NCBI GenBank assembly: GCA_016208975.1
Contig: JACQXA010000004.1
Span: forward strand, 372,001 to 436,000
DNA: 64,000 nucleotides
Reading direction: 5' to 3'
From: Nitrospinota bacterium
Lineage (GTDB): Bacteria; Nitrospinota_A; UBA7883; JACRLM01
Shown here piece by piece: positions 58,895 through 64,000 of this stretch (positions within the stretch are counted from its first letter, which is position 1; the number at the start of each line of letters is the position of its first letter). Under the pieces are notes generated by a model. That model was not told the DNA's origin and did not search any database. It worked only from the letters and a program-made list of their open reading frames with translations. Position numbers and translations under genes: made by a program.

Positions 58895-59212
58895 ATGATA
58901 CGAATTGACCGCGCATGCCAGCGGGAGATCGGAAAGTTTCCCGAAATCATAAGAGAGTAATTGGCTGACGCGGCGGCAAGGATTGAGCCGGGAATGACTC
59001 TAACGATGCCCCTTTCAAGGCCAATGCCCGGCATTGGGAGCGGAGTTAATGAGCTTCGTTTCAGAGGACCCGGCGGAGTGTACCGGGTGATTTATTGGCT
59101 TGCGGGGGGCGGAGTGGTTTGGTTCATTCATGCTTTCCAGAAAAAAACGGCTCAAACATCGCTGACCGATATTAACGTGGCGAGACTGCGATTGAGGAGG
59201 ATTCAGGAATGA
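58895..59212 (+). pseudogene. HigB-like (phage Gp49-type) toxin with in-frame stop
   Basis: The frame from ATG 58895 reads 21 residues (MIRIDRACQREIGKFPEIIR and on), meets TAA at 58958-58960, and continues in the same frame for 84 codons with strong similarity to Gp49-type HigB toxins (MPLSRPMPGIGSGVNELRF, YRVIYWL, FIHAFQKKTAQT). A TTG right after the stop could restart translation, giving an 83-residue protein without the first helix. The antitoxin follows with an ATGA overlap. Confidence 0.8.
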
Positions 59213-59502
59213 AAAGGACAACGGCTGGCGAATTGTCGGAGATGTTCGGCATTAGAAACTCTCGCGCCCTTGAAGCGATATTGAAGGCGGACATCATTAA
59301 AGCTGTATTAAAAGAGATGGAGAGAAAAGGGATCACCCACGCCGGGTTGGCAAAGCGTTCAGGCTTGGCGAGGTCAACCGTTACCGGAATATTAAGCGGC
59401 AGTCTTCAGAAGATAACCCTGGACAGAACTTTGCGGCTTCTTGAAGGGGCCGGATTGACCGCCAAACTGCAGGTAATAAGGGCCAAACAAAAAGCGGCTT
59501 AA
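59209..59502 (+). CDS. HigA-like helix-turn-helix antitoxin
   Basis: A 97-residue XRE-type protein. The helix-turn-helix lies at about 43-75 (THAGLAKRSGLARSTVTGIL). Encoded immediately after the broken toxin, it would be the antitoxin and autorepressor. Its retention while the toxin decays is common in degenerating modules. Confidence 0.85.
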   Translation: MKRTTAGELSEMFGIRNSRALEAILKADIIKAVLKEMERKGITHAGLAKRSGLARSTVTGILSGSLQKITLDRTLRLLEGAGLTAKLQVIRAKQKAA

Positions 59503-60651: not shown

Positions 60652-61941
60652 TTAAATCTCCACGGGTGTTACCAGCCCGTGATCCGGCAGTTCCCGTTTC
60701 CTTATGATGTAGGCTTTTCCCCCGTCCACCAGCGCTTCGGCCGGGGCGGGATGGGAGAGAAAATAGATCATCCCGGCGGTATAGCCGTAAGCCCCGGAAT
60801 TGAACACTCCCAAAAGATCGCCCACCCTGGGTTTGGGCAGTTTAAGCTCCCGCGAGAACTGGTCGGCGGAGGCGCATAACGGCCCCGCCACCGTAACCAC
60901 ACAGCGCGCGGGTTCTCCCATCCTGTTCAGCAGGGCCGAGGGATAATTCTTGTTGAACACTATCGGCACCAATGCGTGATGTATCCCCCCGTCGGTGAGA
61001 ACGAAAGTCCGCCCGCGAGACTCTTTAATGTCCGTGATCCTGGTTACATAAACCCCAGCCGGGCCAGCCAGGTATCTGCCCGGCTCCAGAATGTAACGGG
61101 TGTTTTTGAAATAAGCGGAGCGCCCCAGCCGGTTGACTGTTTTCTTTAACGCGGCTCCCAGCTTTTTCACGTCCAGCTCCCGCTCGCCTTCCTTGAAGGG
61201 TATCCCCAACCCGCCGCCAAAATTTATCATCCGCACCGGGAAAGAGAGTTTAGCGGCGGCCTCCACGGCCCATGCGCCAAACGCGCCATGGATCGCGCCC
61301 AGCGTGGCGGTGTCCAATAATTGCGTGCCTGCGAAACAATGGAACCCCAGCACATCAACCCTTGGGTCTTTAATGGCCCGCGCCACCACCGGAAGCAGTT
61401 TTTCCCCATCGAACCCGAATTTGCGCGCCCCACCTATCATCACCGTGCCTCCAGCGGCGGAGAACTGGAGGTTCACCCGGAACGCTATTTTGACCGGGGC
61501 GGATTTTTTACCCATGGCATCCGCCGCTGAAAAAATCCGCTCCAGCTCCGTTTCCGACTCTATATTGATGGAGCCTATCCGTTTTTTAGCCGCCAGGCGG
61601 ATTTCCTCTTCACTTTTTCCCGGCCCGGCGTAAATTATGTCTTCCGGTTTGAATCCGGCGGACAGGGCCATGGCAAGCTCGCTGGCGGAGGCCACTTCGG
61701 CGCCCGCCCCCAGCTTTTGAAAAATGTGGGCCACGGAACGGTTGGGGTTGGCTTTTACGGAGTAATGGACGCGGAAGCTGGCGGGTATCGCCGATGTAAG
61801 GGCTTTATATTGTCCGCGCATTATGCCCGCATCGTACAGGTATAACGGCGTACCGGCCTTGGCCACTATCTTTTCCAGGGAGGCTCCGCCAGCGGAAAAC
61901 CCGCCCCCTTTGGACATATACAGCTTGATTACAGGGTTCAT
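60652..61941 (-). CDS. lysA: diaminopimelate decarboxylase
   Basis: A 429-residue PLP enzyme of fold type III, the last step of lysine synthesis. K63 in HYSVKANPN holds the cofactor. GGGLGIPF and EPGRYL bind phosphate, and the active-site Cys lies in GPLCASAD. A TATAAT lies only seven bases before the ATG, next to GGAGG, so the mRNA may be nearly leaderless or the ATG at 61917 may be used. A carboxynorspermidine decarboxylase is less likely by length and motifs. Confidence 0.88.
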   Translation of the reverse strand: MNPVIKLYMSKGGGFSAGGASLEKIVAKAGTPLYLYDAGIMRGQYKALTSAIPASFRVHYSVKANPNRSVAHIFQKLGAGAEVASASELAMALSAGFKPEDIIYAGPGKSEEEIRLAAKKRIGSINIESETELERIFSAADAMGKKSAPVKIAFRVNLQFSAAGGTVMIGGARKFGFDGEKLLPVVARAIKDPRVDVLGFHCFAGTQLLDTATLGAIHGAFGAWAVEAAAKLSFPVRMINFGGGLGIPFKEGERELDVKKLGAALKKTVNRLGRSAYFKNTRYILEPGRYLAGPAGVYVTRITDIKESRGRTFVLTDGGIHHALVPIVFNKNYPSALLNRMGEPARCVVTVAGPLCASADQFSRELKLPKPRVGDLLGVFNSGAYGYTAGMIYFLSHPAPAEALVDGGKAYIIRKRELPDHGLVTPVEI

Positions 61942-62019: not shown

Positions 62020-62874
62020 TTATTCAACTTCCACAATAGTCCCAACTTTGAGATTGGAAAATAGAGCGCCAACACTTCCTTTCTTATTTCGCTCCGGGCA
62101 ATTCGCCATTGTGCCATGCTTAATGTGAAAACCCTTTTTCCTTGATTGGCAAAACCCAATTACTTGCCGACTCAATTGGTCGTAAAAATCTGTTTCCTCA
62201 TTTAAATATTTAGTAACCAGTGAATTGTAATTAAGCCTTCCAAAAATAATCTTATCTACAAAGGCAATCGATTCCAGTATCTCTCTAAAATCTTGATCCA
62301 AAATATTTGGAGTTGGATATGGCTCAATGCTCACCCATGTTTTTACTCCCTTTTTATGCAAAGCATAAAGGCTCCTAATTCTCTCTTTATACGGCGCTGA
62401 AAATGGCTCGTATTTTTTTCTATATTTATCGTCAAGCGAAATTAAGGTTATTCCGAATTCATTCAATTCGCTTAGCGAGGAAAGCTCGGCTGGGAGCGTT
62501 CCCTTTGTCAGCGCAGTGCACCTTATGTTTGCATTATTAAGCATTTCAATAATTCTTAAGGTTAAATTCGAGATTTCCTTATAACCGTGCATAAAGGGAT
62601 CCGTGCTAAAACTTAGATGGACAAACTTGATTTTGTCTCTATACTTCGGTATTTCCTTTTGTAGAAGTTCAAGCGAATTTGAAACAATTTTAGGCCTAAT
62701 CCAATCTTCATAGGTTTTTACTTTGCCGAACCTTTTGGCCATAAGCATAGCGTAACAAGGATACAGGCATCCATGCGAGCAACCTTCGACATGGTTAATC
62801 GTGTAGTCCCCGTATTCAACGCCTGTTTTATAAAGAAGTGATTTTCTCTCAATATAAGAACATACCTTATTCAT
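62020..62874 (-). CDS. radical SAM protein with CxxxCxxxC motif (SPL-like, TcmP-associated)
   Basis: A 284-residue radical SAM protein related to spore photoproduct lyase. The cluster motif is GCSHGCLYPCYAM with C32, C36 and C40, that is CxxxCxxxC rather than the usual CxxxCxxC. VHLSFSTDPFMHGY and LTKGT follow. It lies one base after the TcmP gene, the pairing that gave that partner family its name. Base composition is clearly more AT-rich than the rest of the window, suggesting recent acquisition. The substrate is unknown. Confidence 0.85.
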   Translation of the reverse strand: MNKVCSYIERKSLLYKTGVEYGDYTINHVEGCSHGCLYPCYAMLMAKRFGKVKTYEDWIRPKIVSNSLELLQKEIPKYRDKIKFVHLSFSTDPFMHGYKEISNLTLRIIEMLNNANIRCTALTKGTLPAELSSLSELNEFGITLISLDDKYRKKYEPFSAPYKERIRSLYALHKKGVKTWVSIEPYPTPNILDQDFREILESIAFVDKIIFGRLNYNSLVTKYLNEETDFYDQLSRQVIGFCQSRKKGFHIKHGTMANCPERNKKGSVGALFSNLKVGTIVEVE

Positions 62875-62875
62875 A

Positions 62876-64000
62876 CTATGAAAGCTTTCTAACCATGATA
62901 TCGTATTTGGAATACTCCATTGATGTTGCAGGCCTCCTTGTCTTTTTGGTTACAGGGGGATCTCGGACTATTACCAAATCGGAATCGCTTTCCATTCGGC
63001 GAATCTCTTTTTTATAATCTGACTCGCAAAATGCAATCCCGTATTTTTGAATCAATCCGACAATCAAGTCCTGCAGAGAGATGCCTGAACTGCTTGCAGA
63101 CACTAAAGACATAATGTCAGCATGTAAATCAAATCCCTGACACAGTTTAAAATCAGGGAATTCAAGGTCAAGAAGGGCTAGTTGACCATTTCGTTGGCGG
63201 GCAACTATTTCCTTCCATTTTTTGTGCATATTATCTGCCATTAAAATCAAACCGTCTTTATGATTGGAGCAAAAAATTAACCGATATTTAGGGATGTGGT
63301 TTGATTTGGTTTTTATTGGTATATTTACAGTGTACTTAAATACATTCCTCAGCGTTAGACAGTACTCCGATATAAAAGCATCTTCAGCCTCATAGAAAGT
63401 TATCGCTTTTTCATAGTATCTCCTCAGTATATCTTGCCAGTATGCGCCCCCAGCAATTTCGTTTAAGCGGGCAATGGTATTAATGTCTCCATCGCTCTCA
63501 TAATCGGCCAATTCATCGTCGCCCAGGGGATCTGTATATTTCAATAACCGACAGCCTTCTCTGAGGAATCCGACTGAATTGAAATTCATCAGCATTTCAA
63601 TGGATGAAAAACTTGTTTCTCCGACACGCTGGAAGTTGTTGAGGTTGAGGCTTTTTATGCCGTAAGGATCAACATACAAAAAAATGCTACTGTTTCTGTC
63701 TAATGATAATATTTCATTCAGGTTGTCCTCGAATGTTCCATGCAATACCTTTGTATTCGGGTAACCGGCCAGATTGTTTTCTAAATCTGTACCGTACTTT
63801 TTTTCAATAAAAGCTCCCCTAAGCATACCGGTATTTGTCTGATTACTTAGAAGCTTTCCTCTTATTTGTTCTGCTATTATCAACGGCGAACCTGGCGTAC
63901 CATCGTCAAACCTTCCTTTGCCAGCAAAACAATCAAATATATATAACGGCCTATGTGCTCGTAAAATTTTTGAAATATATGGGGTAAGATAGTAGTCAAG
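62876..64000 (-). CDS. tcmP: three-Cys-motif partner protein TcmP, N-terminus beyond window
   Basis: The minus-strand frame stays open to the window end, about 375 codons. Near the edge it reads IFDCFAGKGRFDDGTPGSPL, the TcmP signature, which resembles a SAM-methyltransferase motif I. The first methionine-like codon in view (63883) is internal, so the true start lies outside. It continues FLYVDPYGIKSLNL, a DPPY-like position. It is encoded with the radical SAM protein in an AT-rich block. Function is unproven; a role in nucleic-acid modification or defence is plausible. Confidence 0.85.
   Translation of the reverse strand, partial: LDYYLTPYISKILRAHRPLYIFDCFAGKGRFDDGTPGSPLIIAEQIRGKLLSNQTNTGMLRGAFIEKKYGTDLENNLAGYPNTKVLHGTFEDNLNEILSLDRNSSIFLYVDPYGIKSLNLNNFQRVGETSFSSIEMLMNFNSVGFLREGCRLLKYTDPLGDDELADYESDGDINTIARLNEIAGGAYWQDILRRYYEKAITFYEAEDAFISEYCLTLRNVFKYTVNIPIKTKSNHIPKYRLIFCSNHKDGLILMADNMHKKWKEIVARQRNGQLALLDLEFPDFKLCQGFDLHADIMSLVSASSSGISLQDLIVGLIQKYGIAFCESDYKKEIRRMESDSDLVIVRDPPVTKKTRRPATSMEYSKYDIMVRKLS

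Follow-up and report, generated by a model that had tools for sequence, protein, structure and literature searches.

The three-Cys-motif partner proteins (TcmP) form an NCBIfam family, TIGR04474, that is itself without known function. The nearest described systems that contain one are the PADLOC candidates PDC-M30 and PDC-M41, in which TcmP and a radical SAM protein of the DUF5131 lineage are encoded by two adjacent genes. In P. aeruginosa, PDC-M30 occurs in 32 strains, of which 68.8% are phage-resistant, a correlation drawn from strains that carry many systems (PMC10855318). On pSymA of S. meliloti (L183, 1,254,220-1,259,881), two TcmP genes and a DUF5131 gene directly flank hna, a validated defence gene, and expression of hna and of the TcmP gene SMa2243 rises about equally (PMC12445080). 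TcmP goes unmentioned in the 2026 Hna paper. Our literature search returned no paper that connects TcmP with radical SAM in the context of defence, none joining 'CxxxCxxxC' and radical SAM, and no TcmP-radical SAM member reported to protect from phage or to modify nucleic acid; broader searches brought up nothing pertinent either.

Here we describe a TcmP gene paired with a radical SAM gene of a different lineage. The DNA analysed, which we call the window, is a stretch of 64,000 nucleotides (contig C4:372,001-436,000; the genome assembly has four contigs and totals 2.97 Mb). The two ORFs lie at its end, both on the minus strand, and as originally predicted they are separated by a single base (62875). 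At the level of sequence, homology to known families confirms both as genuine genes (Table 1). The TcmP gene extends past the window. Because its homologues begin MGQTKxFF, its likely start is the GTG at contig C4 436,063 (MGQTKDFF), which is preceded by the ribosome-binding-site-like GGAAGGA; the alternative is an upstream TTG at 436,078.

Table 1. Features of the TcmP-radical SAM locus (positions in the window)
Feature	Position	Strand	Basis
Radical SAM protein, 284 aa, TcmP partner, 'type I' (CxxxCxxxC class)	62020..62874	-	Pfam PF04055
CSHGCLYPC, predicted cluster-binding Cys C32/C36/C40	62755..62781	-	sequence and alignment of relatives
TcmP, three-Cys-motif partner protein, 395-400 aa	62876..64000 (5' end past window)	-	TIGR04474, PDC-M30A
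TcmP motif I and GSP, DCFAGKGRFDDGTPGSP, SAM-binding-like	63884..63934	-	invariant alignment columns; aligns with RlmJ motif I
TcmP motif IV-like DPYG, at position of RlmJ DPPY	63659..63670	-	invariant D, P, G in alignments; variable in part of wider family
Left insertion edge, intergenic, lysA-like gene to radical SAM stop codon	61942..62019		composition break; junction empty in relatives
Flanking native PLP-dependent decarboxylase, lysA / exosortase-associated type	60652..61941	-	TIGR03099 E 2.4e-101, TIGR01048 E 3.5e-88

The original prediction read a sharp change in composition near 62 kb as the start of an AT-rich island. The change is there, G+C falling from 0.57 to 0.38, but the island is not. 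G+C is 0.37-0.39 over contig positions 434,001-436,000 and 0.52-0.64 from 436,001 on, where the next genes are DUF484, ftsZ, ftsA, ftsQ, ddl, murB, murC, murG, ftsW, murD, mraY and murF (DUF484 was identified by Pfam; the remaining dcw gene names were read from their sequences). Composition and gene content thus revert after ~2.1 kb, ruling out an island that continues past the window. The AT-rich DNA is one solitary two-gene cassette of that length, with a lysA-like gene on one side and the DUF484-ftsZ-dcw cluster on the other.

How did the cassette come to lie there? The DUF484 and lysA-like genes directly adjoin in relatives, and the cassette is therefore a single insertion in the source genome. 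The gap between them is 36 bp in the sister genus (G001), 44-147 bp in G003 and G005-G011, and 35-52 bp in G015 and G021, and in nearly every relative tested the junction holds no gene (35-150 bp). Another relative (L134, G002:C223) has a cheV-like gene at the junction; the site may accept insertions. The sister genus carries its own pair, 62% identical, at another site, and this pair too is AT-rich relative to its surroundings (G+C 0.398 against 0.565), as are pairs relative to their flanks in 43 of 48 loci. Near the cassette at the source locus we found no recombinase and no tRNA, the sole tRNA in the 60 kb read lying far off (L003:11051), and terminal repeats at its edges reach chance level only. 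Two overlapping small ORFs ~2.5 kb from the pair (58961-59502, plus strand) have the look, from their sequence, of a HigB/RelE-type toxin and an XRE antitoxin.

The prediction had also held that the pair is accessory, and that finding it among housekeeping genes conserved in all relatives would count against this. Its neighbours are indeed housekeeping genes, but the pair itself is absent from the site in nearly all relatives, and it is accessory in that sense. A possible defence context had been suggested for the DNA beyond the window. That part did not hold at the source locus, where the DNA beyond consists of dcw genes and no restriction, phage or defence genes lie next to the pair; such a context was found only around homologous pairs elsewhere. 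The locus shows that modules of this kind can enter singly among housekeeping genes.

The radical SAM protein matches Pfam Radical_SAM (PF04055) with an E-value of 2.6e-14 and 54.2 bits, against a cut-off of 29.5, and is assigned to the superfamily on that score and on its three Cys for the [4Fe-4S] cluster. Its motif, CSHGCLYPC, is the unusual CxxxCxxxC that the prediction had noticed, with one extra residue (Pro39) relative to CxxxCxxC. This CX3CX3C spacing occurs in 55 of 55 close relatives, whereas the ten distant relatives with an assignable motif, which have no TcmP nearby, all have CX3CX2C. A further difference that follows the linkage appears in the alignment: the partnered enzymes have the segment IEPYPTPN, which in those lacking a TcmP partner is replaced by a shorter IEPV loop. 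Loss of cluster binding, the other result named as adverse, has no sign in the sequence: the three cluster cysteines are intact in the protein and invariant in the alignment of its relatives. Close homologues, 50-76% identical, are present in other genomes and in viral contigs.

Among solved radical SAM enzymes the nearest by sequence is spore photoproduct lyase (SPL), the only named one in the PDB sequence search (4fhc, E 0.0027). When the predicted structure (pLDDT 85.7) was searched, SuiB came first and SPL ranked 2-4. The window protein nevertheless differs from SPL, which has the classical CxxxCxxC and is only ~14% identical, and it has no match to the SPL family TIGR04070 at E<=1. Matches to NCBIfam PA0069, Rv2578c and mobile pair B are all far under their cut-offs, and the DUF5131 score (PF07505) is 21.3 bits against a cut-off of 28.9. 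There is also some likeness to the radical SAM mobile pairs, the type-I enzyme resembling protein B (TIGR04470; 38-45 bits) and DUF5131 resembling protein A (TIGR04471; 93 bits), but these scores reach only between a tenth and a quarter of the cut-offs, and in TcmP systems each enzyme works singly with TcmP.

The window TcmP, by comparison, is a full member of its family, scoring 106.3 bits against TIGR04474 (E 2.5e-30, residues 19-287; cut-off 53 bits) and having the adjacency that goes with it, a radical SAM ORF with CxxxCxxxC one base downstream. It also matches the A component of the PADLOC candidates (PDC-M30A, E 2.5e-13). The likeness to PDC-M30/M41 extends to the arrangement of the genes and the kinds of neighbourhood, but not to the radical SAM protein. 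The B components (M30B/M41B) score 1e-117 to 1e-121 on DUF5131 and ~1e-5 on the window protein, in its N-terminal Cys region; against the B models a true DUF5131 protein reaches 388-402 bits, and the window protein reaches 20-23 bits over its N-terminal 70 residues. By these profile scores the window pair is a TcmP with a radical SAM lineage modelled by neither PADLOC nor NCBIfam. None of the PADLOC models tested would pick up the CxxxCxxxC branch, which is therefore likely undercounted.

A methyltransferase-like motif had been predicted in TcmP, and the sequence does contain one (Table 1). Modelling of the fold, which the prediction had called for, gave a structure (pLDDT 87.5) whose best Foldseek match in the PDB is RlmJ, the 23S rRNA m6A2030 methyltransferase (E 1.8e-4, TM-score 0.51 by target); RlmJ makes up about half of the top 25 rows, although the match is weak (TM 0.40-0.52). 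In a profile comparison with hhalign, motif I of TcmP aligns with that of RlmJ at E 0.0017 with a probability of only 15%. A search of solved structures by sequence with the TcmP profile found nothing. A class I methyltransferase core appears to be common to the two proteins, but TcmP has DPYG for DPPY and an extra C-terminal helix-strand domain. Membership of the RlmJ family (PF04378) was rejected on the DPYG motif and because TcmP has no Pfam family at E<=1; PF04378 has no match in the whole source genome. The DPPY-like site that the prediction had proposed to look for takes the form DPYG in the window protein, and not every TcmP has it: D-P followed by a usually aromatic residue is common in motif IV, while a degenerate, CNSG-like motif I, with the final G of DPxG lost, is seen in about 11 of 41 type-I TcmPs. 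Judged from these motifs, methyl transfer cannot be a general requirement across TcmP systems, because so many type-I TcmPs lack them.

The description of the pair as uncharacterised is borne out, and TcmP itself is common, occurring in 62 of 385 sampled genomes. Close type-I radical SAM genes are present in 11 of these 385, with TcmP alongside in ten, three times as a single ORF. Among non-redundant CxxxCxxxC radical SAM genes, 37 of 38 adjoin TcmP (one split, three fused); the fusions (L057, L059, L063) are 584-601 aa long. The sole type-I gene with no TcmP (L071:616-1392, G206) adjoins a nucleotidyltransferase/HEPN-like pair. Elsewhere (L099, L112, L113, L117) tandem TcmP paralogues precede one radical SAM gene, the first degenerate (CNSG) and the second canonical (FAGTG).

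Type I is not the only partner. About 42 other TcmPs are paired with DUF5131, and altogether TcmP is found with radical SAM proteins of at least three lineages, several of them recognisably related to SPL. Most TcmPs outside these two groups have partners of still other kinds. The partner in L017 is SPL-like (TIGR04070, E 5e-43), that in L024 is similar by motif, L040 has a separate SPL-like gene as partner, and in two loci (L028:7748-9907, L039:6952-8991) TcmP and an SPL-like protein form single ORFs of 679-719 aa. Because several SPL-related lineages are partnered in this way, nucleic acid is plausibly the common substrate of TcmP systems. In a TcmP tree, built by quick search and containing several long branches, the type-I/DUF5131 partner label changes nine times, at least five of them forced by well-supported branches. 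In two further loci (L026:9812-12835, L038:6070-9057), TcmP has no radical SAM gene with it and adjoins a BPTD_3080-type restriction enzyme, scored with NF046055 in L026 and assigned by sequence similarity in L038.

The two proteins have diverged to very different degrees. Across 34 type-I pairs, median pairwise identity is 59.8% for the radical SAM protein and 19.5% for TcmP, from which we infer a conserved chemistry joined to a fast-changing reader.

In 19 of 38 type-I loci the pair adjoins a restriction-modification gene (types I, II, III, IIG, McrC, GmrSD) or cas9. The neighbour is hsdS in L056, hsdM in L080, type III mod or res in L059, L063, L099, L100, L109, L112, L117 and L119, a type II MTase with TdeIII in L046, Eco57I-like in L077 and L078, HindIII-like in L104 and L106, GmrSD in L105 and L114, McrC in L081 and Cas9 in L058. 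Representatives were scored individually and close copies assigned by similarity, in agreement with the family tallies; the 38 loci include several from the same lineages and are not 38 independent events. Four to five genes away, PADLOC families have at most one member each, against six for type III MTase adjoining the pair. The remaining loci are partly prophage-like, with a phage repressor, an ImmA/IrrE peptidase or a serine recombinase alongside. Defence genes as neighbours show no more than residence in accessory DNA.

What, then, is the pair for? We give an even chance to the explanation that the two genes form a module acquired by horizontal transfer and belonging to a widespread defence or counter-defence type, one that modifies nucleic acid. 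TcmP, with its RlmJ-like fold and small C-terminal helix-strand domain, would recognise a nucleic-acid target, and canonical TcmPs, the window's included, may also bind SAM. The partner, of the SPL-related clade, would apply a conserved radical chemistry to one of the target's bases, and the product would either mark self DNA or damage or label invader DNA or RNA, the two proteins acting as one unit. The nucleic-acid substrate, the division of labour and the defence outcome are all things we infer, and the effect may be that self is protected, that the invader is damaged or that the invader is shielded. Weighing against a defence module, the source copy stands alone with no defence neighbour.

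The same base chemistry would serve mobile elements: with the pair, phages, prophages and integrative elements could alter their own DNA so as to escape cutting by host restriction enzymes. In each of the 29 closest viral-contig matches, TcmP lies directly upstream of the radical SAM gene and on its strand, in two pieces in one of the contigs (L083/L110), and in several the pair adjoins genes read from sequence as terminases. One phage-like contig (L115:2816-3946) has the pair near a gene that reads from its sequence as ParB/methyltransferase-like, with an S-adenosylmethionine synthetase gene (S-AdoMet_synt) just upstream, before the packaging genes. Yet many pairs sit within restriction-modification operons or chromosomal defence loci rather than phages (L046, L056, L059), no mobile-element genes lie near the window copy, and among 50,697 records of isolated phages the type-I enzyme has just 2 matches at >=80% coverage, the weaker at 25%. 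We consider this role in mobile elements unlikely.

The likeness to SPL could also mean DNA or RNA repair, the radical SAM protein reversing a base lesion that TcmP helps it to recognise, and lexA adjoins the pair in two loci (L014, L046). These are, however, only two in about 40, and regulation by LexA and the SOS response was set aside as a main theme on that count. The patchy, AT-rich, restriction-linked distribution is unlike that of a repair gene, and TcmP diversifies far beyond what a lesion reader should need; repair is accordingly a distinctly poor prospect. If the pair instead modified rRNA or tRNA in the manner of RlmJ or Cfr, altering translation or drug sensitivity, this would account for RlmJ being the best structural match to TcmP and for the aligned motif I. 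But TcmP lies outside the RlmJ family, and its extreme divergence and restriction-linked loci misfit a single conserved rRNA target, making this reading more doubtful still. That the pair is a selfish or neutral accessory cassette, merely co-resident with defence genes in common insertion hotspots, fits the solitary source copy among housekeeping genes and three other loci lacking defence neighbours (L015, L036, L066), but is very improbable, because strict pairing, fusions and repeated partner swaps imply selection on joint function and the three cluster cysteines are kept in every close relative.

Returning to the defence or counter-defence module, a broader proposal can be made, though only tentatively and with the balance against it. 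TcmP with an SPL-clade radical SAM protein may represent a general modular principle of immunity or counter-immunity, in which a fast-evolving methyltransferase-fold reader and an exchangeable radical SAM enzyme bring about an undescribed radical modification of nucleic acid, whether the invader's or the cell's own. Of this principle the CxxxCxxxC branch would be one unmodelled arm. If this is true, a common accessory pair would be a family of nucleic-acid-modifying defence modules, one reader having exchanged partners among several radical SAM lineages. Radical SAM chemistry would then also serve defence in a way distinct from that of the prokaryotic viperins, which act on nucleotides.
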